Virus record (IMG/VR): IMGVR_UViG_3300044703_000081
Coordinates: 1-61,899 of that record
Origin: a virus
DNA length: 61,899 bases
Direction: 5' to 3' (one strand)
Shown: piece by piece, positions 1,222 to 61,863 of the stretch
Layout of the letters: each line of letters starts with the position of its first letter
Position numbering within the stretch: the stretch's first letter is position 1
Program-made: the position numbers and the translations under genes
The notes under the pieces: model-generated
The model's database searches: none
Seen by the model: only the letters and a program-made list of their open reading frames with translations
Told to the model about the DNA's origin: nothing

Positions 1222-1238
1222 TCCGGCGCGCAGACAAC

Positions 1239-31650: not shown

Positions 31651-31727
31651 TGGTTGCGGGAGCCGGATTTGAACCGGCGACCTCAAGGTTATGAGCCATG
31701 CGCGCTACCGGACTGCGCCATCCCGCG
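31651..31727 (-). tRNA. Phage-encoded initiator-like tRNA-Met(CAU)
   Basis: A full 77-nt cloverleaf on the minus strand with encoded CCA. The acceptor stem is CGCGGGA against TCCCGCA, giving the C1-A72 mismatch that marks bacterial initiator tRNAs. The anticodon loop is CTCATAA (anticodon CAU). The anticodon stem CATGG/CCTTG keeps two of the three initiator G-C pairs and has a T-T mismatch at 29-41. The D stem GCGC/GCGC has C11-G24, which is elongator-like. It lies between the terminase genes in the late operon. Confidence 0.85.
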
Positions 31728-33420: not shown

Positions 33421-34033
33421 CGACGCGTCCTTGCTCGCGCTTCGAGTACGAATTTGCCTCGCAGCGCGATTTTTCCCGATTTTTGGCGGAGGTACCCCCT
33501 AAGAGACCCTGCCAGCGACCGATATCCCGCGCGGCGGCGGCCTCGCAGGCCTGTGGGGGCGGATACGGTCCCTACGATTTCATGGGCAGCTGCTCGCGGG
33601 CTCGCGCGCGCCAGGTGCACGAGCTCGCGCTCGAGCACTCGACTGCACGCCGCCGGCGCGCAAGGTGTTGCGTCACATGACACGCACCTCGTGGCTGCAG
33701 GACTCAAGCGTCCGCCAGGGCGGCGATAGGTCGGGCAGGTTAGATTGGAATGCGCGTAGGGAAGGGGGAAAGTGCTCACCCTGTCAAACCGCCGTTGGGG
33801 GGACAACAGGCGTTTGACAAATAGAGAATGCCATGCCCCGCACCGCGACTCGCATAGCATAAGCACGCCGCAACGCGCGTCCTAACACCCAACAAAAGAA
33901 TGATATTGCACGCTTTTCCTCACTTTGTTGGTGCATGCAGACGCGTCCTGTGCTAGACAATTCTCAGGAGCGAAGCGCGCTCCACAGCCGCGATTGCGCG
34001 GTATTCCGGGATCACCGGGTAGGAGACGACAAG
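33421..34033. promoter_or_regulatory. 613-bp divergent control region between late operon and rightward block
   Basis: No convincing gene lies here. Reading frames have Arg/Pro-rich, shadow-like composition. The region must hold the start of the leftward late transcript and of the rightward transcript for 34034-38640. Noted elements are a TGTCAAAC/GTTTGACA dyad (33782-33819), a GGAGCG/CGCTCC hairpin (33967-33983), a CCGCGATTGCGCGG hairpin (33988-34001) and a less GC-rich stretch around 33890-33960. I cannot assign -10 boxes with confidence. The cos site might also be here. Confidence 0.55.
33782..33819. promoter_or_regulatory. Inverted repeat with two outward-pointing TTGACA boxes
   Basis: TGTCAAAC (33782-33789) and GTTTGACA (33812-33819) form an 8-bp dyad with a 22-bp spacer. 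Each arm contains TTGACA in outward direction, as for divergent -35 boxes or an operator pair. Good -10 boxes are not visible at the proper distance, so this may be an activator or repressor site instead. Confidence 0.4.
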
Positions 34034-34285
34034 ATGACAATCACCCAAGCCAGAACCACGACACTTCCGGTCTGCATGATCGAGCTGCGCAGCGTCTATG
34101 GCGAATGGAAAGTCTACCCCATTGGCTATGAGGCAAAGCAGTTTGCCGAGATTGCCGGGACCACGACGCTAACGCCTCGCGTGCTGCGCTCAATCGAGCG
34201 CCTGGGTTATCGACTCATGATCGAGAGCGGCGGTTCCGGCAAAGGCCAAGCCGTGCTCGATGCCATGCTCAAGTCAATTCATTGA
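34034..34285 (+). CDS. Small protein of unknown function, first of rightward block
   Basis: An 83-residue protein. I start it at the ATG at 34034, which follows a good ribosome-binding site (TAGGAGA). The sequence MTITQARTTTLPVCMIELRS is followed by GEWKVYPIGYEAKQFAEIAG and a helical C-terminus (TPRVLRSIERLGYRLMIES). I do not recognise the family. It is preceded by two hairpins (33967-33983 and 33988-34001) and its stop codon begins the first three-hairpin leader of the next gene. Confidence 0.65.
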   Translation: MTITQARTTTLPVCMIELRSVYGEWKVYPIGYEAKQFAEIAGTTTLTPRVLRSIERLGYRLMIESGGSGKGQAVLDAMLKSIH

Positions 34286-34380
34286 CGTTGCGGCCGGTGG
34301 CCGGCGCAGCCCGGCCACTCCCGGAACGCCAGTGTTCCCGTCGCCCGCGATCGTGCGGGGACGTTTTGGAGGTCTCAGTC
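34283..34380 (+). promoter_or_regulatory. Three-hairpin leader, copy 1
   Basis: Starting at the stop codon (TGACGTTGCGGCCGG), the leader has hairpin 1 (GTGGCCGG at 34297-34304 with CCGGCCAC at 34311-34318), hairpin 2 (GGAAC 34323-34327 with GTTCC 34334-34338), hairpin 3 (CCCGCGATCGTGCGGG, 34344-34359) and then GGAGG before the ATG at 34381. The whole arrangement is repeated at 34906-35002. Confidence 0.65.
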
Positions 34381-34908
34381 ATGGGTACAAGGTCCGATAT
34401 CATCGTGCAGCTGGGGAACGGCACGTGGAAGCGAATCTACTGCCATTGGGATGGCTATCTGGCGCACAACGGCCGCATCCTGTTCGATCACTACACGTCG
34501 CAAAAACAGGCGGAGCAGCTGGTCGCGCCCGGCGACATGTCATCGCTGGAAAAGGACTGCAGCAAGCCGAAGGGCCACAGCTTCGACAAGCGGGTCAAGG
34601 GCTATTGCGTCTACTACGGCCGCGACCGCGGCGAAAAGGACGTGGCCGGCACCACCGGCGACACCCTGCAGGCGGTGTGGCCGGAGGATAGCGGCACCGA
34701 ATTCACCTACGTTTGGAAGGATGGCAAGTGGTGGGTCGGTGATCCGGATGAAGGCACGCAGACCTTGATCGACTTGGGCGATGCTCTCACCGGCAAGCGC
34801 ACCTTGCAGCCGGCCGTGAAATGCTTCGGCGTCAGCACCGTCATCGGCAAGCACGCCGCCCATGACCCGGCCAAGCCCGATCATCACACCTGGACCAGCT
34901 ATTTGTGA
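34381..34908 (+). CDS. Conserved phage/plasmid hypothetical protein (MGTRSDIIVQ family)
   Basis: A 175-residue soluble protein. The start MGTRSDIIVQLGNGTWKRIY and the segments HWDGYLAHNGRILFDHYTS and VKGYCVYYGRDRGEKDVAGT characterise a family I have seen widely on mobile elements, always without assigned function. The start at 34381 is set by GGAGG in the leader. Trp- and Tyr-rich strands with GKWWVGDPDEG near the end suggest a small beta-rich binding domain. It is translated behind the first three-hairpin leader. Confidence 0.72.
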   Translation: MGTRSDIIVQLGNGTWKRIYCHWDGYLAHNGRILFDHYTSQKQAEQLVAPGDMSSLEKDCSKPKGHSFDKRVKGYCVYYGRDRGEKDVAGTTGDTLQAVWPEDSGTEFTYVWKDGKWWVGDPDEGTQTLIDLGDALTGKRTLQPAVKCFGVSTVIGKHAAHDPAKPDHHTWTSYL

Positions 34909-35002
34909 CGTTGCGGCCGGGCGGTGCGCCGCGGCGCACCGCCTCCCGGAACGCCACCGTTCCCGCCCCGCGATCGTGCGGGGCGATCAGGAGGAAAGAG
35001 GG
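34906..35002 (+). promoter_or_regulatory. Three-hairpin leader, copy 2
   Basis: The leader again begins at the stop codon with TGACGTTGCGGCCGG. Hairpin 1 has 10-bp arms (34920-34929 and 34934-34943), different in sequence from copy 1 but with intact pairing. Hairpin 2 is GGAAC (34948-34952) with GTTCC (34959-34963). Hairpin 3 is CCCCGCGATCGTGCGGGG (34966-34983). CAGGAGG follows before the ATG at 35003. Confidence 0.65.
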
Positions 35003-35482
35003 ATGAATACATTCACCGACCGCGAGCTCGGCACCGTGCTCGCCGCGCTGCGCACTTGGCAGCGGCATCACGCCAGACAGATGTTCACCAGCGACACCCG
35101 GCTGCCAGAAGATGACATCGCGACCGTCGGCCGCACCCTGCATCCGCTCACCGTCGAGGAAATCGACGCCCTGTGCGAGCGGCTCAACACGCCGAGCACC
35201 GCCCCGGTGATCGCCATCGCCCTCGACGGCGGCGTGGTGCAATCGGTGGTGAGCGACGATCCCCGCCTGCAGGGCATCGACGTGCTGGTGATCGACTATG
35301 ACGCCGAAGGCGCCACCGAACTCTACCAAGTGCGACAGACCGGCGCCGGCCATGCAGCCGACGACAAGGCCTACGCCGCGCTCTCCGATCACGCCATCGG
35401 CGCGGCCGACGGCATTGCGCTCGCCGAGACCTGGGAACAGTTCTGCAAGCACGGTCCGCTTCCCGTGGCGGAGGGCGCGTGA
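35003..35482 (+). CDS. Hypothetical protein of rightward block
   Basis: A 159-residue protein starting MNTFTDRELGTVLAALRTWQ. The N-terminal part (residues 1-55) is helical and followed by VIAIALDGGVVQSVVSDDPR and GIDVLVIDYDAEGATELYQV, strands common in proteins of the same mobile-element context. The C-terminus repeats short helices. I do not recognise a function. It is preceded by the second three-hairpin leader and followed after one base by the next gene, so the two are likely translated together. Confidence 0.68.
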   Translation: MNTFTDRELGTVLAALRTWQRHHARQMFTSDTRLPEDDIATVGRTLHPLTVEEIDALCERLNTPSTAPVIAIALDGGVVQSVVSDDPRLQGIDVLVIDYDAEGATELYQVRQTGAGHAADDKAYAALSDHAIGAADGIALAETWEQFCKHGPLPVAEGA

Positions 35483-35483
35483 C

Positions 35484-36074
35484 ATGCACAACGACAATGA
35501 GCCGCTCTACAGCCCCGGCAATGCCGGAAAGCTTGGCGCACCTTGGGTCATCGTGCGCGACGATGACGAAGCGATCGAGGTGTTCGACTGCCGCCGGGAA
35601 ATCGTCTGGCTGGAAGATTGGTCAAACCTGCCGGCCGATGAATACACCGAGGCCGAAATCGTCCAGGCCAAGGCGGAAGGCCGCGCCCGCATCGCCGCTA
35701 TCGTCGCGGCGATCAACGGCGCCGCCGAACGCCCGGCCGGCTTCGAAGCCTTCAAGGCCGGCCAGCCGGCACGGGCGATCTTCCGCGCCTTGGGCTTGAG
35801 CGAATATCTGGAAGCCGCCACCAGCTGGCGCGTGCTGCGCATGCTGATCGTGCAGTTCAACGATTGCGACAAGGGCAACTTCGTGGCGTTGGCGCGCCGT
35901 TACGACGGCGTCTGCAGCTCCGGCGAGCGCGTGCTGTTGCATGCCATCTGCTACGTCACCGACTTCGCCTGGCTCGCCGACGAGCTCGGCGGCAAGCGCG
36001 TCTGGCAGAACATGCACCGCGCCAGCGGCGAGTGGCGGCAGGCCGTTGTCGCCTGCATCGCGGCGGAGGTGTGA
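35484..36074 (+). CDS. Hypothetical protein of rightward block
   Basis: A 196-residue acidic protein starting MHNDNEPLYSPGNAGKLGAP. It contains EAIEVFDCRREIVWLEDWSN at the N-terminus and a long helical C-terminal part (AIFRALGLSEYLEAATSWRV, LLHAICYVTDFAWLADELGG). No family or catalytic motif is evident to me. One base separates it from the previous stop and one from the next start, showing tight coupling. Confidence 0.66.
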   Translation: MHNDNEPLYSPGNAGKLGAPWVIVRDDDEAIEVFDCRREIVWLEDWSNLPADEYTEAEIVQAKAEGRARIAAIVAAINGAAERPAGFEAFKAGQPARAIFRALGLSEYLEAATSWRVLRMLIVQFNDCDKGNFVALARRYDGVCSSGERVLLHAICYVTDFAWLADELGGKRVWQNMHRASGEWRQAVVACIAAEV

Positions 36075-36075
36075 C

Positions 36076-36645
36076 ATGGACAATACTCACCCGCGCGCCA
36101 TCGTCGCCCAATTCCACAAGGATTCAGGCGGTCGGCTGACGATGTTTTCACTGACGGTCATTGAGCACGGCACCGAGCGCGATGGACGCGAATACCTCTG
36201 TCGAAAGACTTACGACGTCGATCACTCACGGGCGTATGGCTATCTGTTCCATCAAAGCGGTGGTGGAGGTTCGCTCCCCGTCAATGTGCAGGGAATCTAC
36301 TTCGCCAGCGGCGATGTCGAGATCGAGGAAAAGCCGACCCAGCTCGTAGACGCGCGCGACAAGCCGCCGTGGCGGGGAAAAAAGACCCGCGCGATCCGCA
36401 AGCGCAACCGGACGCGCCGCCTGCCCAGGCTCCCCAAAGCCTGGACTCTTGAGCCCGGCTGGGACTTGCTGGACTGGATGCACCACAACGCGATTGAGCA
36501 GCGCGCCGTTTGGTGCTCGACGTGTCGCGACCGGTTTCCCGAAGATAGCCTGTGCGAGCATTGCTGGTGGTGCAACGTGAACGGCTGGTATTCGACCCCA
36601 GCCGAACGCTGCGAGTGCAAGGACCGCGAGGAGTGCTACGGATGA
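36076..36645 (+). CDS. Zinc-ribbon-like hypothetical protein
   Basis: A 189-residue protein. The N-terminal half is beta-rich (GRLTMFSLTVIEHGTERDGR), a basic linker follows (KKTRAIRKRNRTRRLPRLPK) and the C-terminus has eight Cys residues in pairs (WCSTCRDRF, CEHCWWC, CECKDREEC), fitting one or two zinc sites. Basic linker plus Cys cluster suggest nucleic-acid or protein binding. The function is not known. Its stop overlaps the start of the next gene. Confidence 0.66.
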   Translation: MDNTHPRAIVAQFHKDSGGRLTMFSLTVIEHGTERDGREYLCRKTYDVDHSRAYGYLFHQSGGGGSLPVNVQGIYFASGDVEIEEKPTQLVDARDKPPWRGKKTRAIRKRNRTRRLPRLPKAWTLEPGWDLLDWMHHNAIEQRAVWCSTCRDRFPEDSLCEHCWWCNVNGWYSTPAERCECKDREECYG

Positions 36646-37229
36646 CCGCCGCCCTTGACACCAAGCCGCTCCCGCGGGACGACGGGGTCATGCCGACCCC
36701 GTCCGACCTGCGCGCGCTCCGCACCCTCCTCGGCTACAGCCGCGACGAGATGGCGCGCCTGCTCGACGCCGGCGGCCGCGACGGCCGCCCGCTCACCGGC
36801 GAGGACATCCGCAAGCTCGAGCGCGCCCGCACCTGGTTCGTCAGCGCCACCCATGTGGAGACGCTGGAGATCATGCTGGCGCGCGTCAACATCGCGCTCG
36901 ACGAAGCCCTGCAGGGCGAGCCACCGAAGTTCCTCATCGCCTTCCCGAACGACGGCGCTTTCCGCGACTATGCGCCGGCGATGGCCGAATGGATGCACTA
37001 CAACTCCGCGCACCTGATGTTCACCGCCCGCCTGCTCGACGGATGGATGGTCGACGGCCACCGCCCCGAGGTGATGGAGCTCGTGCCGGCGTCCTACGCG
37101 CAATTCCGCAACGACCGCAACGCGCCCGACAATGACGCCACCCGGCTCGCCTGGGCCGCGGACTACCGCACCCTGATCAAGCAGCGCTCCGGCCTGCTGC
37201 GGCCGGAGCGGGAGAACGACGACGCATAA
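36642..37229 (+). CDS. Helix-turn-helix protein (Xre-like) of rightward block
   Basis: A 195-residue protein. Residues about 18-60 (PSDLRALRTLLGYSRDEMAR and LTGEDIRKLERARTWF) look like an Xre-type helix-turn-helix. The C-terminal about 130 residues (NDGAFRDYAPAMAEWMHYNS, LVPASYAQFRNDRNAPDNDA) have no known domain to me. It may regulate the block or act as an adaptor for the HerA-like ATPase that follows. The start overlaps the preceding stop (ATGA). Confidence 0.65.
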   Translation: MTAALDTKPLPRDDGVMPTPSDLRALRTLLGYSRDEMARLLDAGGRDGRPLTGEDIRKLERARTWFVSATHVETLEIMLARVNIALDEALQGEPPKFLIAFPNDGAFRDYAPAMAEWMHYNSAHLMFTARLLDGWMVDGHRPEVMELVPASYAQFRNDRNAPDNDATRLAWAADYRTLIKQRSGLLRPERENDDA

Positions 37230-37236
37230 TCACACG

Positions 37237-37252
37237 GCCGCGATCGCGCGGC
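37237..37252 (+). promoter_or_regulatory. GCCGCGATCGCGCGGC hairpin before the HerA-like gene
   Basis: A 6-bp stem with an ATCG-containing loop is placed 17 bases before the ATG at 37270 and just upstream of AGGAGG. The same core hairpin precedes the genes at 34034, 34381 and 35003 and the minus-strand gene starting at 55788. Confidence 0.55.
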
Positions 37253-37269
37253 GTGAACAGGAGGAACAC

Positions 37270-38640
37270 ATGACCACCATCCCGCTCGGCACCACCGCCG
37301 CCGGCGAAGCCATTGCGCTGCCGCTGCGCCTCGCCAACCGCCACGGCCTGATCACCGGCGCCACCGGCACCGGCAAGACGGTCACCTTGCAGCGCCTGGC
37401 GGAAGGCTTCTCCGCCGCCGGCGTGCCGGTGTTCATGGCCGACATCAAGGGCGACCTCACCGGCTTGGCCACCTCCTTCCCCGTCCGCTTCTTCGACCTG
37501 TTCGGCGAGCAAGGCCTGCCCATGCGCACCTCGGTGCACGAAATGGGCCCGCTGCTGCTGGCGCGCATGCTCGAATTGAACGACACGCAAGAGGGCATCC
37601 TCAATATCGCCTTCCGCTGGTCGCCGCACGGCGTCACCGTGCCGCTGCGCGACCTGCACGACCTGCGCGCGCGGCTCTCGGCCATGCTCGATTACCTCCC
37701 CGAGATCCGTGCCGCGTATGGCAACGTCGCCGCCGCACCCATCGCGGTGATCCAGCGCGCGCTGCTGGTGCTCGACACCCAGGGCGGCGACCGCCTGTTC
37801 GGCGAGCCCGCCTTCGACATAGCCGACCTGCTCACCACCACCACCGGCGAGCCGCGCCAGCGCGTCCGCGACGGATCGCGCGTAAACGGCCTCGGCACCA
37901 TCAACCTGCTCGCCGCCGACCGCCTGCTGGAGACGCCGCGGCTCTACGCCACCTTCCTGCTGTGGCTGCTCACCGCGCTGTTCGACCACCTGCCCGAGGC
38001 CGGCGACGCCGACAAGCCCAGGCTGGTGTTCTTCTTCGACGAAGCGCACCTGCTGTTCGCCGACGCGCCCAAGCGGCTCCTGGAGACCATCGAGCGCACC
38101 GTGCGCCTGATCCGCAGCAAAGGCGTCGGCGTCTATTTCGTGACGCAAAGCCCGCGCGACGTGCCCGACAGTGTGCAGGCGCAATTGTCCCACCGCATCC
38201 AGCACGCGCTGCGGGTCTACACCGCGCGCGACCGCCGCATGCTCAAGGCGGTGGCCGACGGCTTCCGCCCGCCCGCGCACCTCGCCGACGCGCCGAAGAA
38301 AGCCGCCGCCTGGATCGAAGCCGAGGTCACCACGCTCTCCACCGGCGAAGCCTTGGTCTCATTGCTGACCACCGAGACCGGCGCGCCCATGCCGGTCGTG
38401 AAGGTCAACGTAACCCGCCCGGTATCGCAGATCGGCCCAATCGCCGACGCCGCCCGTGCCGCCATCATCGCCGCCGATGCGCTGGCCGGCAAATACACCC
38501 CCGCGCTCGATCGCCCGGCGCAGTTCCGCGCCTTCTGCAAGCGCTTGGTCACCACCGGCGAATTGCCGTCCGCCGTCGTCGCCGAGGCCTTCGCACCGCC
38601 ACCGGCCGCGGCATCGTGGCTGGCGCGGCTGTTCGGGTGA
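37270..38640 (+). CDS. HerA/YjgR-like (DUF853) hexameric ATPase
   Basis: A 456-residue P-loop ATPase of the HerA-FtsK superfamily, closest in layout to the YjgR/DUF853 group. Walker A is GATGTGKT at residues 30-37. DIKGDLTGL follows and is highly typical of DUF853 proteins. Walker B is LVFFFDEAHLLF near residue 258, then RSKGVGVYFVTQSPRDVPDS and the arginine-bearing QLSHRIQHALRVYTARDRR. HerA-type ATPases translocate DNA or act with nucleases and in phage defence. No NurA or other nuclease is directly next to it. The role here is unknown. Confidence 0.82.
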   Translation: MTTIPLGTTAAGEAIALPLRLANRHGLITGATGTGKTVTLQRLAEGFSAAGVPVFMADIKGDLTGLATSFPVRFFDLFGEQGLPMRTSVHEMGPLLLARMLELNDTQEGILNIAFRWSPHGVTVPLRDLHDLRARLSAMLDYLPEIRAAYGNVAAAPIAVIQRALLVLDTQGGDRLFGEPAFDIADLLTTTTGEPRQRVRDGSRVNGLGTINLLAADRLLETPRLYATFLLWLLTALFDHLPEAGDADKPRLVFFFDEAHLLFADAPKRLLETIERTVRLIRSKGVGVYFVTQSPRDVPDSVQAQLSHRIQHALRVYTARDRRMLKAVADGFRPPAHLADAPKKAAAWIEAEVTTLSTGEALVSLLTTETGAPMPVVKVNVTRPVSQIGPIADAARAAIIAADALAGKYTPALDRPAQFRAFCKRLVTTGELPSAVVAEAFAPPPAAASWLARLFG

Positions 38641-40898: not shown

Positions 40899-41153
40899 CT
40901 ACAGATTCCACAGCCGGGGATCGTCCGGCGTCTTCGGCTTGAGGTTCGTGCAGAACGATTTGAATATCTCGCTGTAGGTGCCGACGTGGCAGTCGCAGAC
41001 GCGCCAACCTTGTGCGCGTGCACGCGGCGGCACCCGGCAGGCGAACAGGCAGCCCGCGATCGGCACCAGCGTCCAGCGCGCCACCGCCGCCATGCGCTTG
41101 AATTCCTCCAGCGTCATGAAGTAGCGGTAGCGGTATTGGTAGGACGGTCTCAC
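40899..41153 (-). CDS. Small hypothetical protein coupled to C5 methyltransferase
   Basis: An 84-residue protein. I prefer the GTG at 41153 because it overlaps the methyltransferase stop as GTGA, which fits the coupling pattern; the ATG at 41117 is an alternative. It contains several Cys residues (GCLFACRVPPRAR, CDCHVG) that may bind metal. No family recognised. Confidence 0.58.
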   Translation of the reverse strand: MRPSYQYRYRYFMTLEEFKRMAAVARWTLVPIAGCLFACRVPPRARAQGWRVCDCHVGTYSEIFKSFCTNLKPKTPDDPRLWNL

Positions 41154-43225
41154 TCCGCCGCCTCCAGCACGAAGTCCGGCGGCGCGTCGCGCTCGAGCAC
41201 GCGCGGCGCGAAGTTGGCCTTGACCAGCGCGCTCACCACCGGCGGCGACACCGAGTTGCCGACCATGCGGCCCTGCTCGTCGCCCGAGATCGTGCGCTGC
41301 ACCACCGTGCCGTTCTTGAGCCGCTTCGGCACCGTCAGGCTGATGATGTAATCCGGCTTGAAGCCCTGCGCGTTGAAGCGCTCGCGCGGGGTGAGCATCC
41401 GCATGCCGATGTCGACGATCTGATATTCGACGCCGTGCACCGTGACGATGCCGACGCGGTCCTTTGCCGTGACGGTATGCAGCGGGTCGCGCGCGTCCTG
41501 CCACTGCCCGCCGGTGCCGTAGTATTTGACCAGGAAGGCGCGCACCTCGGCGAGGTGCCGGCCCTGCGCGGTGATGCTGGCCACCGGCGCCGCAATGTCG
41601 CCGCCGCGCCGCTCGGTGCCTTTCAGGTTCACCATCCCGACCGACACCACCGCCTGCGTGCAGCCCTTGCTGACGATGGTCGACACCGGCTCGGTCGCGT
41701 CGTGGCCGATCATGTCGGTGTTGTGCTGCGCCAGGAAGGCAGAGACCACCGCGGCCTTGCCGCCGCCGCCCGGCGTAATCGTCCCCACCGGATCGTCACA
41801 CGTCGACCCGACGGACGCGCCGAACTGCCGCGACAGATGCGCCGCCACCACCGCGTGGCGCGGATCGCAGGTGATGGTGCGCAGCGGTTCCTCGGCGCTC
41901 GCCGAGCGATCGGTGCCGCCCTGGCCTTCGCCATAGAAAGCCGACAGATGCGCCGCCACCAAACAATCGTCCGCTTTCGCCGTCATCGTCCGCTCGGGTG
42001 CATCCGCAGGACGCGCCGCGCTCTGACCCGCGCGACCACCGCAACCGACCAGCACCGGCACCACCAGCGAGGCCTCATTGCCGCTCGGCACCACCACCGG
42101 CATCGGCTCCTCCACCGAGCGCGTGCGCGGCTCCTGTGCCGGCGCGGTGTCGGTCGCCGGCCGCTCGCCATAGCGCTGCACCAGGAACGGCGTCACGATC
42201 CCGAGCGGCGAGTAACCGCCCGGATGCGTCTCCGAATGCGCCGCCGTGATGGTATGCAGCGGCTCGTCGGCAGCGTGCCCGACGCAACCGTTGTTGAACT
42301 TGGTCACGAACGGCGTCACCACCGCATGCTCGCCGCGATGCGCGGTCGTCTGCGTCCGCAGCGGCTCGTCGATGCCGTTGACCCGGAAGTCACCACCGTG
42401 CGTGATCGGCACGATGAACGGCTGCGCGGCGTTGATGACATAGCGGAACACACCCTTGGCGATGCGCTCCATGGTCTTCGGCTTGAGCGGGCGCTGCACG
42501 CGGATGCGCGACGCCGCCCACAGCGCCTTCACCTCCGCCGGCGTCAGGAAGATCGACGGGCACGGCAGCGACCAGTCGATGATCTCCGCCGCCGCGCGCC
42601 AGGGTTTCAGCGTGCCGGACTTCACCGCCTCGGACTTCGGGTCGCCATGCGTCGGCGCCGGCCATACGATCGGCTCGCCGTCGCGCCGCGCGATCAGGAA
42701 CAGCCGCTTGCGGATCGTCGGCGCGCCGTAGTCGCACGCCCGCAGCTCGCGCCACTGCACGCGATAGCCGAGCTTCTTGAACTCACCCACCCATTTGCGG
42801 AACGTGTCGCCCTTGCGGTCGGGACAGGGCCGGCCGTCGGCGGCGAGCGGCCCCCAGGTCGCAAACTCCTCGACGTTCTCCAGGATGATCACCCGCGGCG
42901 AGACCTGCCGCGCCCACCGCACCACCACCCAGGCGAGATCGCGGATGCGCTTCTCGACCGGCTTGCCGCCCTTGGCCTTGGAGAAGTGCTTGCAGTCGGG
43001 CGAGGTCCACAACAATCCCACCGGCCGGCCGCCGCACACTTCGAGCGGGTCGACCTTCCAGATGTTGTGCGGCAGGTGCAGCGTGTTCGGATGGTTGGCG
43101 GCGTGCATGGCGAGCGCCGCGGCGTCGTGGTTGATGGCGATGTCCGGCGAGCGCCCGAGCGCCAGCTCGATGCCGAGCGAGGCGCCGCCACCACCGGCGA
43201 AGCTGTCGACAATGATTTCTCTCAT
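41150..43225 (-). CDS. DNA cytosine-C5 methyltransferase with repeat-rich insert
   Basis: A 691-residue C5 DNA methyltransferase that would methylate cytosines in phage DNA against restriction. Motif I is DSFAGGGGASLGIELALG near the N-terminus; the catalytic region reads WTSPDCKHFSKAKGG, with the Cys preceded by Asp instead of the usual Pro-Cys; motif VI is ILENVEEF; the C-terminal motif X is GRMVGNSVSPPV. Between the catalytic halves, about residues 300-600, seven to eight degenerate repeats of roughly 40 residues recur (for example EPLRTITCDPRHAVVAAHLS). It overlaps the DUF3297 gene and the small gene downstream. Confidence 0.9.
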   Translation of the reverse strand: MREIIVDSFAGGGGASLGIELALGRSPDIAINHDAAALAMHAANHPNTLHLPHNIWKVDPLEVCGGRPVGLLWTSPDCKHFSKAKGGKPVEKRIRDLAWVVVRWARQVSPRVIILENVEEFATWGPLAADGRPCPDRKGDTFRKWVGEFKKLGYRVQWRELRACDYGAPTIRKRLFLIARRDGEPIVWPAPTHGDPKSEAVKSGTLKPWRAAAEIIDWSLPCPSIFLTPAEVKALWAASRIRVQRPLKPKTMERIAKGVFRYVINAAQPFIVPITHGGDFRVNGIDEPLRTQTTAHRGEHAVVTPFVTKFNNGCVGHAADEPLHTITAAHSETHPGGYSPLGIVTPFLVQRYGERPATDTAPAQEPRTRSVEEPMPVVVPSGNEASLVVPVLVGCGGRAGQSAARPADAPERTMTAKADDCLVAAHLSAFYGEGQGGTDRSASAEEPLRTITCDPRHAVVAAHLSRQFGASVGSTCDDPVGTITPGGGGKAAVVSAFLAQHNTDMIGHDATEPVSTIVSKGCTQAVVSVGMVNLKGTERRGGDIAAPVASITAQGRHLAEVRAFLVKYYGTGGQWQDARDPLHTVTAKDRVGIVTVHGVEYQIVDIGMRMLTPRERFNAQGFKPDYIISLTVPKRLKNGTVVQRTISGDEQGRMVGNSVSPPVVSALVKANFAPRVLERDAPPDFVLEAAE

Positions 43226-44503: not shown

Positions 44504-45777
44504 GCGCCGTCCCCATCGGTTTGCCCGGAGAGTTGCGCCTCGGCCTTGTTCAGCGGCCATTCGCGCGGATAGCGCCGGCCCTTGGTGCGGCGCTGGGTCT
44601 CGAAGGTCTTTCCGCTGCCGTCGGTATGCGTGACTGTGCCGTCGAGCATGATCAGCTCGGGCTCCGGCCAGCGCCCGCACCAGTCGTGCACGCGCTTCGA
44701 CCAGGCGAACCAGTGCGGCGTCTCGGGCTCGGCGATCGGCCACGTCGCCGTCGGCACGTCGGCGTACGCCGCATAGCCGAGCCCGCACGGCGGGACCTCC
44801 GCCGGGAAGGTGCCGCCGCGGCCTTCCGGCAGAAACTGCACCACCGGCGTCGGCACGCCGACCATCGCGCAGTACACCCACCACGCTTTCCACGCCGCGC
44901 TGTCCTCGGCGGCGAACCGCTTCGGTTTCGGGATCAGCTTCTTGGCGTCGGGGAACTCCTCGAAGCCGCGCCGCTCGAGCCATTTGTGCGCGTCGACCGG
45001 CCGGCGCTTGAGCGCCTCCAGCCGCTTGCCGTAGTCGATGGCGGCGAAGCGCGCCCATTGCCGATCGGGCTCGGCCAGTGCAGCGAACACCTCGGCCGCG
45101 CGCTCGCGGTCCATCACCTCGTGACCGGGGAAGTTCGACCAGAGCGCGATGAACGTCTCGCTCCTGGATGCGTTCGCTTGCTCGCTTACTCGATCGCCAG
45201 AATCCTGTTCGCGCACACCCCCCAAGGGGGGTAGGGGGGATTCTTTCTTAGACTCTGTAAGAATCGGGTGACTATTAGTCGCCCCTCCCGCGTCAGCCAG
45301 TCGCCCCCCGGGTGACTGATAGTCGCCCCCGAGGGGTGACTGTGTGTCGCCCCCCGCCGCCGGCAGGGGGTGACTATTAGTCGCCCCCCCGGGCGACTGT
45401 GTGTCGCCCGTGACATTGCCGGCGCTTTGGTCGCCTTTGCCGTCCAGCCGCGCGCCCGCCGCCGCCGCGGTCGCGTCGCTGCCGTCCTCGGAAATTTCCA
45501 GGTAGATCGGGTCGACCGGCGCACATATGCGATAGGTGCATGGCTTCATGCCGCCGTTGACGTTGGCCACCTTGACCAACACGGCGGCGGTTTCCAGCGC
45601 GCGCAGCTCGCGCTGCACCTGCCGCCGCGAGATGCCGATCTTCTCCGCCAGCCGCGGCACCGAGATGGTGATCTCGTGGGTTTTCGAATCCGCCGCGAAC
45701 GCCATGTCCCAGGCGATCGCGCGCGACAGGTCGTGCACCTTGCTGCGGTAAACCCATTTGCAGGCCTCGAAGCTCAT
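44500..45777 (-). CDS. Replication initiator (lambda O / plasmid Rep-like) with in-gene iterons
   Basis: A 425-residue protein. The N-terminal winged helix (KVHDLSRAIAWDMAFAADSK, then RLAEKIGISRRQVQRELRAL) is typical of phage and plasmid replication initiators. Residues about 122-170 are low complexity (GDTQSPGGATNSHP) and are encoded by iterons. A C-terminal domain (residues 210-420) includes RSETFIALWSNFPGHEVMDR and AHKWLERRGFEEFPDAKKLI, a pattern seen in initiator C-termini. It should bind its own iterons and recruit the host helicase loader or DnaB. I see no phage DnaB gene in the window. Confidence 0.78.
   Translation of the reverse strand: MSFEACKWVYRSKVHDLSRAIAWDMAFAADSKTHEITISVPRLAEKIGISRRQVQRELRALETAAVLVKVANVNGGMKPCTYRICAPVDPIYLEISEDGSDATAAAAGARLDGKGDQSAGNVTGDTQSPGGATNSHPLPAAGGDTQSPLGGDYQSPGGRLADAGGATNSHPILTESKKESPLPPLGGVREQDSGDRVSEQANASRSETFIALWSNFPGHEVMDRERAAEVFAALAEPDRQWARFAAIDYGKRLEALKRRPVDAHKWLERRGFEEFPDAKKLIPKPKRFAAEDSAAWKAWWVYCAMVGVPTPVVQFLPEGRGGTFPAEVPPCGLGYAAYADVPTATWPIAEPETPHWFAWSKRVHDWCGRWPEPELIMLDGTVTHTDGSGKTFETQRRTKGRRYPREWPLNKAEAQLSGQTDGDGA
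45266..45410. repeat. Five iterons inside the initiator gene (candidate phage origin)
   Basis: Five 20-bp repeats, each a near-palindrome: GGGTGACTATTAGTCGCCCC at 45266-45285 and 45368-45387, a GATAGT variant at 45310-45329, and GTGTGT variants at 45334-45353 and 45391-45410. A half site AGTCGCCCC lies at 45299-45307. The repeats are read in two different frames of the gene (ATNSHP and GDTQSP), so it is the DNA that is conserved. Lambda and many plasmids keep their origin inside the initiator gene in this way. Confidence 0.8.
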
Positions 45778-48437
45778 GAGGCCTCCGCGTCGTCGACCAC
45801 CGCGGGTGCATCGTCCGCCTCGTCCGCGGCCAGGAGATCGAATAGCGTCGGCACCGCGACGCCGCGCTCGGCCGCCTCGCAGTTGCGCACGCCGTCGGCG
45901 AAATAGTCGGCGTTAAGCTCGCAGCCGACGCCGCGGCGGCCGAGCTTCACCGCCACATAGGGCACCGTCATCAGTCCGCCGAACGGATCGAACACGCTCT
46001 CGCCCGGCATCGAGTGCAGGCGGATGGCGCGCTCGGCGATGTCGAGCGGCAGCGGGCACAGATGCGCGGCCCGGTTCTGCAGCCGCTGCTCCAGATTGAG
46101 CGTCCGCATGCGCGCGATCGACCACACGTCGGGATGCTCGACATGCGCCGGGATCACCGCGAATTCCGGTTTCAGCTTGCCGCGCGCGTCGAGCGCCTCG
46201 CCCACCGCGACGTGGTGCGCATAGTCGTAGGGCTGCGTCAGGCACTGCTCGCGCCAGGCCCGCCACACGCCGCGCACCGGCAGCAGCGCGAACTCCGCCG
46301 GCGTCAGCAATCGGTTGCCGTTCGATCGCTGCAGGCCGGCGGCGTCGATCTGCCAGGCCGCGCGCGAATAGGCGAGCCGGGAATCGTCGGCCGCCGCTTC
46401 CTCATCCGTGCGCGGATCGGTGACGCGCCAGCATTTCTCGTCCTTGTCCCATTCCTTTTTCAGCTTCACCACCGGCACGTCGGCATAGCCGCGCCCGCGG
46501 TCGGTCTGCGGCTTCCGAAACAGGTGCAGGTATTCGATCAGGCCGGCGCCCATGCGGCTGCCGTCCTTGCACTGCTCGGTCCAGCCGAGCCGGTTGGTCT
46601 GCGCGTTCTCGCGCACGACGTCGGTCGGAATGAGCTTGGTTCCGAGATAGGCGAAGCCGTGCTGCTGGAAATGGAACAGCACGCGCGCCCCGAACGGCGA
46701 CACCGTCTGGAAGCCGAGCCCGGAGCGCGCGCCTTCGACGATGCGGTCCTTACAGTGGATGGCGGCGACCCGTCCGGGCGCCAGCACCCGCAGCAGTTCC
46801 GGCGTCAGGAAATCCATCTGCTGGAAGAAATGCGCGTCGTCGTCGGTATGGCCGAAGTCGTTGTAGCTCGGCGTGTAGCGGTACTGCATCGCGAACGGCA
46901 GCGAGGAGACGATGAGGTCGACGCTGTCGCTCTCCATCGCCCGGGTCTCGTCGACGCAGTCGTTGTTGGCGAGATGCCAGCGCTCGCCGCTGGCCTCGCG
47001 CCGCGTGATGCCGATCGACTGCTTGAGCGTGGCGCCGAGCGAGAGCCGGGCGAGACCGAACTCCCGCAGCATGGCCGCCATCCGCGCCGACTGCTCCTCG
47101 TAGCGCCGCCATTTGGCTTCCAGGATGCGCCGGGTCGCGCGTTCCGCCTCGGTATAGATCAGGTCGATCCGCACGCGCGGCTGTTCGCCGGCGAATTTAT
47201 GGAATCTCTGTCCGTAGCGCTGCAGCCGGTGAATGGCCTGGATGAAGTCCTTGAACTTGAAGCCGATGCCGAGAAAGATCGCCCACCACGCGTAGGCCTG
47301 ATAGTTGCCGCCCGAGCCGATCATCACCGGCTTGCCGGCGAGCTCCTGGATGCGGCCGTCGGCGAAGCCGATCAGCGATTGCTCGCGTTCTTCCAGATCC
47401 TGCGCGCCGTAGACGGTGACGGCCGAAGGCACCGCCTTCTCGATCGCGCGCCGTTCGTCCTCCAGGTCGTGCCAGATCAGCCGGTGCGCGTCCGGCTGCT
47501 CGGCCCGCAGCGCCAGCAGCTTCTCGATCCGCGCCGGGATCGACGCGCGCTTCTCGGTCGCGGCTTCGCTGACGCCGATCGCCGCCGAGTTGATCAGCCG
47601 GTACTGGCCGTTCGGCTCGGCGCCGGCGCGGCGATGATCGGTCGCCACCTCGTGCCAGCGGATATCGAGCGCCGGCAGCAGGTAGCCGTCGTCGGAGAAC
47701 GACGGGTCGATGTCCGACGGCACCTGGATGAACAGCGCCCATGACGCCACCCACCGCCAGAACTCCTCCTCCTTGTGCGGATGGATGGTGAGCTTGTCGG
47801 CGTGCTCGGAATCGCGCTTGAAGAAGCGCGTGCGCGCCTGCCCGATATCCATGATGTCGAGATAGGAGGCATAGGCCAGGAGCTCGGTGTAGTCGTTGGG
47901 ATCGGGCGTCGCCGTCGCGACGAAGCGGTACTTCACCTGCTTGACGTTGCGCACGAAGGCCCAGAACGTCTTGGTCGAGAGGTTGCGCAGGATGTCGCCT
48001 TCGTCGAACGACGTGGCGGTGAAGCGGCGCGGGTCGATCTTGCCTTCGCGGATCGACTCGACATTGGTCAGGTTGATCGCGCCGGCATCGAGCTCGCGGT
48101 CCTCGCGCATGAAGTTGAGCCGCACGCCGTAGCGTCCGGTGAAGAATTCGCGGGCGTCGTTGAAGAACGACAGCCGCGCCCCGAGCGGCAGCGTGATCAG
48201 CGTCGGCCCGCCGGTATGGGCCGCAAAGAGCCGCATCAATTCGAGATGCGCCGTGGTCTTTTGCGTGCCGAAGCGCGAGAACAAAGCCCGCCGCCCGCCG
48301 GCCGCCATCCACTGCACCGCCACCTGGATGTGCGGTTTCAGCACCGGGTTGATGTCGGCCGGATCGACCTCGAATCCCGCCGGCGCCGCCAGCTTGATCT
48401 TGGCCTCGAGGAATTCCCGGTAGGCGGGCGCGTTCAT
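45774..48437 (-). CDS. Helicase-DNA methyltransferase fusion
   Basis: An 887-residue fusion protein. Residues about 30-430 look like a SNF2/DEAD-type helicase: a degenerate P-loop (SRFGTQKTTAHLELM), RFTATSFDEGDILRNL as the DExx site, RFVATATPDPNDYTE as motif III and FIQAIHRLQRYGQRFHKF as motif VI. Residues about 470-860 are a beta-class N6-adenine or N4-cytosine methyltransferase: catalytic LIVSSLPFAMQYRY (normally D/S-PP-Y/F) precedes the SAM site SVFDPFGGLMTVPYVA. The N-terminal domain may translocate or load the methyltransferase. It lies directly upstream of the initiator gene with an overlap. Confidence 0.8.
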   Translation of the reverse strand: MNAPAYREFLEAKIKLAAPAGFEVDPADINPVLKPHIQVAVQWMAAGGRRALFSRFGTQKTTAHLELMRLFAAHTGGPTLITLPLGARLSFFNDAREFFTGRYGVRLNFMREDRELDAGAINLTNVESIREGKIDPRRFTATSFDEGDILRNLSTKTFWAFVRNVKQVKYRFVATATPDPNDYTELLAYASYLDIMDIGQARTRFFKRDSEHADKLTIHPHKEEEFWRWVASWALFIQVPSDIDPSFSDDGYLLPALDIRWHEVATDHRRAGAEPNGQYRLINSAAIGVSEAATEKRASIPARIEKLLALRAEQPDAHRLIWHDLEDERRAIEKAVPSAVTVYGAQDLEEREQSLIGFADGRIQELAGKPVMIGSGGNYQAYAWWAIFLGIGFKFKDFIQAIHRLQRYGQRFHKFAGEQPRVRIDLIYTEAERATRRILEAKWRRYEEQSARMAAMLREFGLARLSLGATLKQSIGITRREASGERWHLANNDCVDETRAMESDSVDLIVSSLPFAMQYRYTPSYNDFGHTDDDAHFFQQMDFLTPELLRVLAPGRVAAIHCKDRIVEGARSGLGFQTVSPFGARVLFHFQQHGFAYLGTKLIPTDVVRENAQTNRLGWTEQCKDGSRMGAGLIEYLHLFRKPQTDRGRGYADVPVVKLKKEWDKDEKCWRVTDPRTDEEAAADDSRLAYSRAAWQIDAAGLQRSNGNRLLTPAEFALLPVRGVWRAWREQCLTQPYDYAHHVAVGEALDARGKLKPEFAVIPAHVEHPDVWSIARMRTLNLEQRLQNRAAHLCPLPLDIAERAIRLHSMPGESVFDPFGGLMTVPYVAVKLGRRGVGCELNADYFADGVRNCEAAERGVAVPTLFDLLAADEADDAPAVVDDAEAS

Positions 48438-48751
48438 GGCAACGGCTCGTCTTCATTGTTGCCGGCCCAGCACACCACCCACTGCTCGGCCATGCGGCCG
48501 AACACCACGAAGCAATAACCCTTGCGGTTCGGCTCCACCGTCGACTCGAACGCGGCGTCCTTATCGGCCGGAAATGTTTTGACCAACGGCGCCTGCGGTC
48601 CTCTGCCGCGAGCGTAGACGCTGATGAACCGACAGCCGCGGGATTGCGCTTCGGCCGCTCCGAGCCGGGCAAAATCCTGCATGCGTTGCGCCTGCGGGAA
48701 GCTGGCGATGAACGTCGCATCGAGCGGTGCGAATTGCGGCTGCGCGTTCAT
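48434..48751 (-). CDS. Small hypothetical protein between methyltransferases
   Basis: A 105-residue protein starting MNAQPQFAPLDATFIASFPQ. It contains RGCRFISVYARGRGPQAPLV and GYCFVVFGRMAEQWVVCWAG, suggesting a compact alpha/beta fold. No family recognised. It overlaps both neighbouring methyltransferase genes, so it may be an accessory factor to them. Confidence 0.6.
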   Translation of the reverse strand: MNAQPQFAPLDATFIASFPQAQRMQDFARLGAAEAQSRGCRFISVYARGRGPQAPLVKTFPADKDAAFESTVEPNRKGYCFVVFGRMAEQWVVCWAGNNEDEPLP

Positions 48752-50517
48752 GGCTTGCGCCTCAAGAACGCGGGAATGTCGGTGTCATCCACCACCGGCG
48801 GCAGCGTGTTGAGCGCCGCCGCGTCGATCTCGACGCCGTCAATCACCAGCGGATGCGGCAGGTCATCGCCACCGCACGAAGGGGTATTCATTCCGGATAC
48901 CCCTTCACCACCGGGCGGCGCCGCCGGCTCATCGACCACCACGCCGTCGGCATCGTGCGCGAGCCGATCGGCGTCAGTCGGCAGCGCGAACGGCAGCTCG
49001 TCGCTCCAGGTCACCCAGCCCGGCCGCTCGCGGCGCGCGAACAGTTCGAGATAAGGCCCGCTCACAAGCCGCTCGATGCGGTCGTGGATGTCGGGCTTGC
49101 GCGAGTGCTCCATCACCGGCGCGATCACCAGCTGCCGCACGTCGGCATTGAGCCGCGTCGGCGCGCCGCGCGTCGCCAGCCAGCAGGCTTCCGGGTTGGC
49201 GCGCGTCCAGTAGCCCGGCCCCATGAAGAAACTGGTCTCCAGGTCGCCGACGTCGATCTCACCGGAGGCGTTGAGCTTGATCCAGGTGAACGCCGTGGTC
49301 TTTTGGGTGAAGCCGAAGGCCTTGAGCACCTCGAGCGCGAGCTCCACGCCCCAATCGACCATCCACATCAGCAGCGTGGTGTCGGCATCGCACAGCGCCG
49401 CGATCGGCAGCGCCTTGATGGCGTCGAGCGTCATGGTGCGGTAGTGCATCGAAGCCGAGCGGTCCTCGCCGGCCGGCGAGCGGGTGAGGAACTTCCACGG
49501 CGGATCGGCCAAGATGGTCCTGGCCTTGAAGCCCGAGGCGGCGAGCGCGTGCAGATCGTCGACGGTGCCGCCCTTGAAGGACTGCGGCAGCACCACGCGC
49601 GCCCGCTTGGCCTCGACCCGGGCGGCACGGATTTGTTTCACCTCTTGCAGAAGCGGCCGCTGCGCCTTGGCGATGAGGCGGTCCTGCTGCTTGGCCGGCA
49701 GGTCGGCGATCACCGCGGCCGTCGCCGCCGCCACGTCGCCGCGGATCACCGCGGCCTTGAGCGCCGGCGATCCCTTCTCCTCCACCGTGTCGGCATATTG
49801 CTGCAGCCGTCGGCTGACCTGTGCCGCCGCCGCCTTCTGCTCCTGGGAGGGTGCGCAATTTTGCGCACCCTCACCACCGGCCCCACCGGCCATGGTGTGC
49901 TGGTTGATGCCCACCGCCAGCTTGCCGCGGGCCGCGGCGTACATCGCCCGCTGGCTCGGGGTGAGCTGCCGCCGCTCGTAATTCATCGAATGCACGAAGG
50001 CGAAGGCCGCCGCCTCGTCGCCGGAAAAATCGGTGAACGGCACCACCGCGCCGGTGACGTCGGCGGCGCGCAGCCGGTTGCGGCCGTCGAGCGTGCGTCC
50101 CTCGAACAGCACCACCGGCATGTTGATGCCGTTGGCCTTGATATCGGCGCAGAACTCGTCGAACGCCGCGCCTTCCAAGAGCGGCAGCAACTCGGCGAAC
50201 GGATGCGGCAACAGCATGCCGGCCTCGCCGTTGGCCAATTCGATCAGCACGTCGCCGTGGCACGGCCGCCCCACCGAGCAGCCGCAGCCGAGATCGCGAT
50301 AGCGCAGCCGGAACAGGTTGGCGCGGATGAAGTCGCCCTTACGGCTGTCGCGGTTGCGGATCATGTCGCGGTAGAGCGCGAGGTTTTCTTCCGGCGAGCC
50401 CTTGTCGTAGGGATTGTCCCAGTTGGTGCCGGCGCCGGCCCACACCAGCGACACGCCGGGCGGCTGGCTGTTGGCCTGCCCGCGCGTGCACTGGATGCGT
50501 TGCGGGGTCAGCGTCAT
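48748..50517 (-). CDS. DUF4326-ParB-MT-A70 adenine methyltransferase fusion
   Basis: A 589-residue three-part protein. Residues 1-105 are a DUF4326 domain (NWDNPYDKGSPEENLALYRD; LGCGCSVGRPCHGDVLIELA). Residues about 105-200 are ParB/sulfiredoxin-like (INMPVVLFEGRTLDGRNRLR; FVHSMNYERRQLTPSQRAMY). A helical linker follows. Residues about 330-510 are an MT-A70 adenine methyltransferase with the catalytic DPPW in ARTILADPPWKF and late FMGPGYWTRANPEACWLATR. ParB domains bind CTP or DNA, and MT-A70 enzymes make N6-methyladenine. The likely role is protection of phage DNA. Start ATG at 50517 fits the DUF4326 N-terminus. Confidence 0.85.
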   Translation of the reverse strand: MTLTPQRIQCTRGQANSQPPGVSLVWAGAGTNWDNPYDKGSPEENLALYRDMIRNRDSRKGDFIRANLFRLRYRDLGCGCSVGRPCHGDVLIELANGEAGMLLPHPFAELLPLLEGAAFDEFCADIKANGINMPVVLFEGRTLDGRNRLRAADVTGAVVPFTDFSGDEAAAFAFVHSMNYERRQLTPSQRAMYAAARGKLAVGINQHTMAGGAGGEGAQNCAPSQEQKAAAAQVSRRLQQYADTVEEKGSPALKAAVIRGDVAAATAAVIADLPAKQQDRLIAKAQRPLLQEVKQIRAARVEAKRARVVLPQSFKGGTVDDLHALAASGFKARTILADPPWKFLTRSPAGEDRSASMHYRTMTLDAIKALPIAALCDADTTLLMWMVDWGVELALEVLKAFGFTQKTTAFTWIKLNASGEIDVGDLETSFFMGPGYWTRANPEACWLATRGAPTRLNADVRQLVIAPVMEHSRKPDIHDRIERLVSGPYLELFARRERPGWVTWSDELPFALPTDADRLAHDADGVVVDEPAAPPGGEGVSGMNTPSCGGDDLPHPLVIDGVEIDAAALNTLPPVVDDTDIPAFLRRKP

Positions 50518-54331: not shown

Positions 54332-54610
54332 TCATGACGCACTACCGGCAACGGCGGATGCGGCATCGGCGCTGCCACCGCGCCGCGGTGCAGTGAGGGT
54401 CAGCAGCTCGAAGGTGATGCCGGCAAAGCCGCGGCGCGCGGCATGCGAGACCACCGCCGGGCGGTAGTCGTCGCCGATCGAATTGCGCCGGCGCATCTGT
54501 TTGGCCGCGTCGTAGGAAACACCGATGTCCTGGGCGAAATCGGACAGTGTCGCCCACCGGTCGATGACGTCGCGATGGCTGAGGAGGGGCTTGGCCGGCG
54601 AATCATTCAT
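54332..54610 (-). CDS. Cro-like DNA-binding protein
   Basis: A 92-residue protein. LSHRDVIDRWATLSDFAQDI followed by GVSYDAAKQMRRRNSIGDDY is a good match to the short Cro/YdaS-type helix-turn-helix. It is divergent from the S24-type repressor with an 83-bp gap between starts and would be the first gene of the leftward early operon. I see no ribosome-binding site before the ATG at 54610, so the message may be leaderless. It likely binds the palindromes described here to favour lytic growth. Confidence 0.72.
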   Translation of the reverse strand: MNDSPAKPLLSHRDVIDRWATLSDFAQDIGVSYDAAKQMRRRNSIGDDYRPAVVSHAARRGFAGITFELLTLTAPRRGGSADAASAVAGSAS

Positions 54611-54618
54611 GCTATGAT
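54591..54618 (+). promoter_or_regulatory. Candidate repressor promoter with extended -10
   Basis: TTGGCC (54591-54596) and TATGAT (54613-54618) have a 16-bp spacing, with TG placed one base before the -10. Transcription would start near 54625, inside the palindrome at 54620-54634, so the repressor would control its own promoter. Confidence 0.5.
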
Positions 54619-54619
54619 C

Positions 54620-54634
54620 GGTACATTATGTACC
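54620..54634. promoter_or_regulatory. Operator palindrome GGTACATTATGTACC
   Basis: An exact 15-bp palindrome (GGTACA-TTA-TGTACC) in the gap between the Cro-like gene and the repressor. The minus strand also reads CATAAT here, a close -10 match for the leftward early promoter. The same form recurs at 55347-55361. Confidence 0.75.
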
Positions 54635-54662
54635 AGTCAACCGCAACCGTGCCGGGACTACT

Positions 54663-54683
54663 TGTACCCAGGCTGGCGGTACA
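54663..54683. promoter_or_regulatory. Secondary operator-like dyad TGTACC-N9-GGTACA
   Basis: The same half-sites as in the main palindrome, inverted and spaced by nine bases, lie just before the repressor start at 54694. It could be a weaker repressor site in the leader. Confidence 0.5.
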
Positions 54684-54693
54684 GATCGTCCCT

Positions 54694-55290
54694 ATGGACG
54701 ATTTTGTGGACCGATTGTCGTGGCTGTTTCGCGACGAAAAATTCGCCAGCAAGCGCGCGGCCGCCGACGCCTACGGCATCGGCTACGAAACCTATAAGAA
54801 GGTCGCCGGCGGACGCGAGGCGCGCGGGCTCACCAAGGAGCACGCCGAGAAGATCGCGCGCTACCACCGCGTCTCGGCCGGCTGGCTGATGTTCGGCGAA
54901 GGCACGCCGGAAGGCGAGTTCTCGGTGCCGCTACGCGGCTATATCGGCGCCGGCCAGGAGATGATTCCGTTCGACGATGCCGATGATGGCCGCCGCACTG
55001 ACGCGCTGCTCGCCGGGCCCGAGGTGAGCGCGTTCGAGGTGCGCGGCGATTCCATGTTCCCGGTCGCGCGCGACAAGGACATCGCCTTCTTCGGCCCGCC
55101 GCGCCGCGACGTGCGCCGCATGGTCGGGCAGGAATGCGCGGTGCTGCTCGAAGATGGCCGCCGGTTCTTCAAGGTGCTGGAAGCCGGCGAGCACTCAGGC
55201 ATCTATGATCTGCACTCCTACAACGCCGAGCCGATCCGCGGCGTCGAAGTGCACGAGGCCGGCCGGTTCTTGGGCGTGCGGCGGCGATAG
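54694..55290 (+). CDS. S24-type phage repressor (CI/LexA-like)
   Basis: A 198-residue repressor. I prefer the ATG at 54694 since the helix-turn-helix follows directly (DRLSWLFRDEKFASKRAAAD, YGIGYETYKKVAGGREARG). A LexA/UmuD-type S24 domain follows: the likely cleavage site Ala-Gly in YIGAGQEM near residue 86, catalytic Ser in FEVRGDSMFPV near residue 119 and Lys in GRRFFKVLE near residue 159. It should keep the prophage silent and be inactivated by RecA-stimulated self-cleavage. Palindromic operators lie on both sides of the gene. Confidence 0.9.
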   Translation: MDDFVDRLSWLFRDEKFASKRAAADAYGIGYETYKKVAGGREARGLTKEHAEKIARYHRVSAGWLMFGEGTPEGEFSVPLRGYIGAGQEMIPFDDADDGRRTDALLAGPEVSAFEVRGDSMFPVARDKDIAFFGPPRRDVRRMVGQECAVLLEDGRRFFKVLEAGEHSGIYDLHSYNAEPIRGVEVHEAGRFLGVRRR

Positions 55291-55788: not shown

Positions 55789-55811
55789 CCTTCCCTCCCT
55801 TGCCCCCACCG

Positions 55812-55825
55812 CCGCGATCGCGCGG
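55812..55825. promoter_or_regulatory. CCGCGATCGCGCGG hairpin before the secreted protein gene
   Basis: The same stem-loop as upstream of several genes in the rightward block, here 24 bases before the start at 55788. A variant CCGCGATGGCGCGG occurs at 55840-55853. Confidence 0.45.
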
Positions 55826-55946
55826 GCGGACGCGTTGGCCGCGATGGCGCGGTGTTAACGCGTGGACCGGGGCTCGCGGCGGCGGACGCGGGATGCCCAT
55901 CCTCTGCGTCCGCCGCAACCTTAGCACGAATCCACGGCGGGCGGCG

Positions 55947-61830: not shown

Positions 61831-61863
61831 TTCCGCTGCTCTAACCAACTGAGCTACCCCGCC
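61787..61863 (-). tRNA. tRNA-Met(CAU), elongator type (host, integration target)
   Basis: A 77-nt cloverleaf with encoded CCA. The acceptor arm GGCGGGG pairs with CCCCGCT (G1-T72 wobble), the D arm is GCTC/GAGC, the anticodon loop ATCATAA gives CAU, and the T arm is GCCGG/CCGGC. Position 27-43 is a G-G mismatch. The 3' end faces the prophage and lies in the attachment core, so integration leaves the tRNA sequence intact. Confidence 0.9.

Follow-up and report, generated by a model that had tools for sequence, protein, structure and literature searches.

Early operon and its leaders

The window analysed here is the complete 61,899-nucleotide stretch of the IMG/VR virus record IMGVR_UViG_3300044703_000081. 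Its minus strand encodes a lambda-type terminase and portal; on the plus strand an early operon begins near 34 kb. Two untranslated gaps in this operon, before genes B and C, form similar leaders, each of which opens with the upstream gene's stop codon (34283–34285 and 34906–34908) and ends at an ATG (34381 and 35003). The element of interest is the hairpin closest to the start codon, hairpin 3, which represents a real, apparently undescribed family of start-associated hairpins in phages. Hairpin 3 was present in all four untranslated gaps of the operon, before genes A, B, C and G; genes D, E and F follow one another without gaps. No terminator-like site (a GC-rich hairpin followed by a T run) was found on the plus strand in 33700–37300.

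Table 1. Positions in the window of the genes, ribosome-binding sites and leader elements discussed in the text
Feature	Position	Strand	Description
Gene A	34034–34285	+	83 amino acids, without family match; first gene of the early operon
Gene B	34381–34908	+	175 amino acids, phrog_23089/phrog_1987
Gene C	35003–35482	+	159 amino acids; relatives in L111 (two) and L117, all 3' of a hairpin 3
Gene G	37270–38640	+	HerA-like ATPase (PF05872); query for locating related phages
Shine–Dalgarno sequence of gene B	34368–34372	+	GGAGG, from sequence
Shine–Dalgarno sequence of gene C	34989–34994	+	AGGAGG, from sequence
Leader 1	34283–34380	+	From the gene A stop codon up to the gene B start
Leader 1, hairpin 1	34296–34319	+	GGTGGCCGG-CGCAGC-CCGGCCACT
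Leader 1, hairpin 2	34323–34338	+	GGAACG-CCAG-TGTTCC
Leader 1, hairpin 3	34344–34359	+	CCCGC-GATCGT-GCGGG, conserved loop
Leader 2	34906–35002	+	From the gene B stop codon up to the gene C start
Leader 2, hairpin 1	34919–34944	+	GGGCGGTGCGC-CGCG-GCGCACCGCCT
Leader 2, potential hairpin 2	34948–34963	+	GGAACG-CCAC-CGTTCC; alternative pairing favoured
Leader 2, hairpin 3	34964–34985	+	CGCCCCGC-GATCGT-GCGGGGCG
Hairpin 3 type, gene A leader	33987–34002	+	GCCGC-GATTGC-GCGGT
Hairpin 3 type, short gene G leader	37237–37252	+	GCCGC-GATCGC-GCGGC

The two leaders (34283–34383 and 34906–35005) are 79 % identical over 78 nt, with an E value of about 5e-13, and their likeness is therefore not due to chance. 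Their positions agree with the initial annotation, which had listed both correctly and had missed the hairpin 3 sites before genes A and G. The same annotation had described an order of three hairpins shared by both leaders. Hairpins 1 and 3 were indeed found in both, but hairpin 2 (GGAAC/GTTCC) was the favoured computed fold in leader 1 only (P 0.78). In the computed fold of leader 2, CGTTGCGG (34909–34916) pairs with CCGGAACG and lengthens hairpin 1 (P 0.96 versus 0.00 for hairpin 2). This pairing, which would exclude hairpin 2, can form at 34909–34954 and in the leaders of a related contig described below, making a two-state leader possible. Hairpin 1, as had been claimed, differs in nearly all of its sequence between the two leaders yet is fully paired in each. 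Folding energy alone (z = -1.5 for leader 1 and -3.6 for leader 2) is modest evidence for leader structure.

Relatives of gene G led to related phages, among them contig L111, whose gene G is 62 % identical to that of the window. L111 carries three more full leaders, each composed of GACGTTGCG, hairpin 1, GGAACGCC, hairpin 3, a Shine–Dalgarno (SD) sequence and an ATG, with one hairpin 1 stem common to two of the leaders and a different stem in the third. Across the five aligned leaders all cells of hairpin 1 were paired (45/45) and seven of its nine pairs had changed on both sides, and the covariation score for the whole structure was 0.42 versus 0.18 after shuffling and at most 0.09 when slid. 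The compensatory change that the initial annotation regarded as strong evidence is weak evidence when drawn from two copies alone; it is the covariation of five leaders, together with the recurrence of hairpin 3 in other phages, that now supports its proposal of a selected RNA structure. The proposal thereby withstands the refutation that the annotation itself had named, a lack of support outside the two copies. Hairpin 2 varied little among the five leaders and is disrupted in the third leader of L111, in which the alternative pairing is kept. A search of IMG/VR with the exact hairpin 2 pattern gave 32 stretches, apparently chance matches except for one contig that agrees with the window at 100 % identity.

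The full three-hairpin unit is found only in two related phages, those of the window and L111. No leader was present beside the direct relatives of the gene B and gene C proteins, and the leader thus does not travel with those genes; nor was any DNA similarity found between the window and named phages and plasmids. Comparable layouts with other sequences were seen in L063, L113 and L106. Among the spacers that carry hairpin 3, two forms could be distinguished, a short form in which the loop starts 8–24 nt past the stop codon, and a longer form that usually has a strong hairpin of free sequence between the stop codon and hairpin 3. The presence of such a hairpin in most longer spacers indicates that the specific signal is hairpin 3, with hairpin 1 as a generic accompaniment, so that the emphasis originally placed on hairpin 1 fell on an element that is paired and covarying but is the least specific part of the leader. 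L063 (GGAC-GCTA-GTCC) and L113 (GGTC-GCTA-GACC) were also seen to have a small hairpin in the middle, with the same loop in both, and it is possibly the counterpart of hairpin 2.

Conserved loop and variable stem of hairpin 3

Hairpin 3 recurs on a fixed strand and at a fixed position, with a conserved loop and a covarying stem, in two unrelated phage types. It consists of a stem of 3–8 bp closing C-[RAYYGY]-G and was found in ten related phages or prophages, at 3–7 copies per phage, where it precedes about 45 genes that belong to unrelated families. So that the loop was not picked by eye, every hexaloop in 383 spacers of 24 contigs was counted. The counts were seven for GATTGT, five for AATTGT, four for GATCCT, three for GATCGT and two for AATCGT, each of which occurred as a hexaloop zero times in 886 coding stretches. 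A first version of the count, which took in every SD-like start and not called genes only, was noisy, with GATTGT barely at the top.

The closing C-G pair and an A at loop base 2 were common to all 41 listed sites, giving the consensus C-[AG]-A-[TC]-[TC]-[GC]-[TC]-G; four additional sites in L106 had the loop AATCGA or AATAGA. Several loop versions (GATCCT, GATTGT and GATCGT) are found inside L111. The distance from loop end to start codon had a median of 23 nt and was nearly always 16–29 nt, with the hairpin just 5' of the SD sequence. The stems seen were GGGC/GCCC, CCGC/GCGG, GCCC/GGGC, CCTC/GAGG, GGGAC/GTCCC, GGCTC/GAGCC, CTCC/GGAG, GTC/GAC and GCC/GGC. Even at the starts of orthologous genes the stems differ but pair, as for HerA (GCCGC/GCGGC in the window versus CTCC/GGAG in L214) and the beta clamp (CCCGC/GCGGG in L111 versus GCC/GGC in L117). 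The downstream genes are unrelated and include those for beta clamp, DUF932, N6 methylase, DUF3560, PAPS reductase and HerA proteins.

Two related observations were made apart from these sites. In L115, a HerA-bearing relative that lacks the hairpin, several starts (near 2067, 2291, 2814 and 3907) are preceded by a linear repeat, AACTGTGAGG, which resembles a stemless form of the CAACTGTG core. In the window, two further CCGCGATSGCGCGG inverted repeats lie at 55805–55855 between divergent genes, with no SD sequence and start at the usual distance.

Controls and distribution

Because the site lists partly demanded pairing, a pairing-free test was run on the core CRATYGTG followed by an SD sequence and a start, with a core scored as paired if it had at least two flanking pairs. 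Cores before an SD sequence and start were paired in 21 of 24 cases, compared with 9 of 35 at other positions of these contigs (Fisher 3.4e-6) and 44 of 205 at other loci (Fisher 2.5e-10 for start-associated cores versus all others combined). Of the three unpaired start cores, two belong to L111 and have a bulged stem (CCCCGCGATTGTGCTGGGG), and the third is on the opposite strand. An additional five contigs gave 12/12 paired cores of this kind, a set with some bias because three of them had been retrieved with a pattern that fixes one paired site each and one with the model described below. A stemless pattern gave 15 matches in 324 kb when applied to the whole contigs of five phages, on a single strand per phage, versus seven in the 3.7 Mb L106 genome. 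The density in that genome was used for comparison because a backwards-pattern control proved an unfair null, giving zero even where chance matches occur. When a single stem was combined with the right loop, ten sites were obtained from IMG/VR, nine of them with an SD-like sequence and ATG at the usual distance; the same stem with the loop reversed gave five sites, none so placed.

A search model, R1, was built from 26 phage sites in seven contigs, with no site from L106, L214 or L230. It found three early-strand sites in L106, weakly (15–18 bits), and arrays of five same-strand sites before called genes in each of L214 and L230, which are of the same order. L214 had been chosen for its phage-type HerA gene; L230 had been chosen for its model matches and was then found to carry a terminase (53 % identity) and HerA relatives. 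Hairpin 3 was also located before several genes in an unrelated podovirus group with a head–tail connector (PF12236), for which none of the early proteins tested had a detectable relative in the stretches examined. A model scan of 115 genomes across the class returned scattered weak matches only, indicating that the motif belongs to particular phages and not to bacterial genes generally.

In agreement with the earlier supposition that no described RNA family has this form, Rfam 15 at gathering score returned only tRNAs and an unrelated suhB/mmgR match for the window, L111, L113 and L114. No paper describing hairpin 3 or the leader was found in the open full-text library searched.

Comparison with known systems

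The closest system in placement is that of the start-associated sequence (SAS) and extended SAS (ESAS) of cluster K mycobacteriophages, in which a short repeat of unproven function lies just 5' of many starts in one orientation (PMC3203893, PMC12699233). SAS is a fixed 13-bp sequence, GGGATAGGAGCCC, to which ESAS adds an upstream imperfect 17-bp inverted repeat with consensus arms and a variable spacer (PMC3203893, PMC12699233). Hairpin 3 is likewise repeated directly 5' of many starts of different gene families in one orientation, but it conserves the loop only, with freely varying arms of 3–8 bp. A search upstream of starts in the window for the SAS with up to two mismatches gave no matches. 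By this analogy hairpin 3 may work like SAS, yet it is not an SAS member.

The MS2 coat hairpin is a phage translational operator that overlaps the start region. In phage Mu, Com acts on the mom mRNA as a translational operator system (PMC6483171). Both share with hairpin 3 a small RNA structure near the start site, of a kind recognised by sequence and shape, but they control one or two genes, whereas hairpin 3 occurs in 3–7 copies per phage upstream of the SD sequence. The lambda nut/boxB and HK022 put sites are antitermination RNAs, and boxB has a short stem with a specific loop. These are also small hairpins in early-operon RNA; they are, however, transcription elements near operon starts, whereas hairpin 3 stands before individual cistrons with a constant spacing to the SD sequence, and its presence at every untranslated gap argues against a lambda boxB/nut antitermination site.

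The S6:S18 leader of rpsF is an RNA structure upstream of the start codon that controls translation (PMC4647458), and none was found in the Rfam scan of the window. A hairpin with an RAYYGY loop, as in the phage leaders, is missing from the conserved rpsF leader and from most rpsF leaders of Rhizobiales, in which another sequence is conserved. In one genus, a hairpin 3-like CCGC-AATNGT-GCGG hairpin with some compensatory stem change was observed just before the rpsF SD sequence of about 28 of 30 species (L266–L295; e.g. L229:8240–8278); other Rhizobiales have no such hairpin. Mimicry of the S6:S18 leader was ruled out, as the rpsF hairpin is genus-specific and lies downstream of, and outside, the conserved leader.

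Other features of the contig

The window also contains a match to the suhB/mmgR rhizobial small RNA family (RF00519, 47 bits) at 1231–1304 (-), inside the virus contig. Three differing DNA methyltransferase genes, of C5, N6/N4 and MT-A70 types, are encoded on the minus strand at 41150–43225, 45774–48437 and 48748–50517, and a DUF5131 gene is present on the same contig at 52018–53121. An operator-like palindrome, GGTACATAATGTACC, lies at 54600–54694, flanked by one gene on the minus strand and another that encodes a peptidase S24 (repressor-like) domain, and a GapR-like DNA-binding protein (PF10073) is encoded at 56469–56846 (+). There are two tRNA genes, at 31654–31727 (-) and 61790–61863 (-), the latter at the contig end, where it could mark an attachment site.

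Proposed function of hairpin 3

The structure and position of hairpin 3 are well supported, and its function can be inferred from them. The combination of fixed strand, fixed distance to the SD sequence, conserved loop and covarying stem points to action as an RNA when translation is initiated, and the lack of relationship among the served genes suggests a shared signal rather than autoregulation by one product. The explanation we favour, with about even confidence, is that hairpin 3 is a start-associated RNA hairpin whose loop may be read as a signal controlling translation initiation of the early cistrons. A freely varying but paired stem would present an almost fixed loop just before the SD sequence at many cistrons of one early region, and the mRNA would be acted on there as translation begins. 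Reading of the loop in trans would then place these cistrons under joint control. The reader would more likely be a host component than a phage protein, for instance a protein that binds RNA or, close to the mRNA exit site, the 30S subunit, and the occurrence of one loop in unrelated phages and of several loops in one phage favours the host side. Hairpin 1 would be a generic hairpin, serving in longer spacers to insulate cistrons or to protect the message. The window leaders, which are the most elaborate form of the hairpin 3 family, would consist of hairpin 3 and this upstream part, copied within this phage lineage.

Several points weigh against this explanation. Genes were called with a home-made gene caller, and covariation counts from the site lists that demanded pairing are biased upwards. 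Several HerA-bearing relatives lack the motif; none was found in the stretches read of the HerA relatives Rhizobium phage RHph_X2_30 and Rhodobacter phage RcZahn. Phage-specific loops (GATCCT four times in L111 and AATCGA in L106) also fit a phage-coded reader. Such variants favour a phage protein, and hairpin 3 could be the translational operator of a phage-encoded RNA-binding protein that represses or activates all early cistrons jointly on binding the loop, in the way that MS2 coat protein or Mu Com acts on single genes, as the conserved loop, variable stem and early-operon location would also suggest. This is a distinct but minority possibility, as different loop versions coexist in L111, phage types that are unrelated have an identical loop, and none of the early proteins proved common to all motif-bearing phages and absent from others. 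A broader proposal, in which the fixed-loop hairpin would be a general translation-start signal for early genes of alphaproteobacterial phages, with the ribosome itself or a translation factor of the host as reader and rpsF of one host-order genus using the same signal, is speculative and on balance unlikely.

Location of the hairpins between cistrons, often alongside a second strong hairpin past the stop codon, would suit an mRNA processing or stability element at which a host or phage ribonuclease cuts or is stopped; processing alone does not explain the fixed distance to the SD sequence and start codon, or the occurrence of hairpin 3 in very short spacers, and we consider this role rather less probable still. 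Generic GC-rich intercistronic hairpins without a specific reader, alike in their loops through common descent, would account well for hairpin 1, which is simply paired and has no shared sequence. For hairpin 3 the same account is improbable, since its loop is kept while the stem turns over, including at the orthologous HerA and beta clamp starts, and is also kept in unrelated phages. Least plausible, to the point of being very improbable, is a DNA operator bound as double-stranded DNA by a phage repressor. There are inverted repeats before early genes, and the gene F product appears by eye to have an XRE-type helix-turn-helix, but without a Pfam match; the conserved part of the sites is an asymmetric centre in one orientation with arms that vary while pairing is kept, and the sites are mostly operon-internal.

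Start-associated repeats have been known in phages since 2011 without a mechanism, and hairpin 3 provides a concrete RNA to test. It adds to them loop conservation, stem covariation, a search model that works and independent occurrences in other prophages, and can serve to mark gene starts when these phages are annotated.
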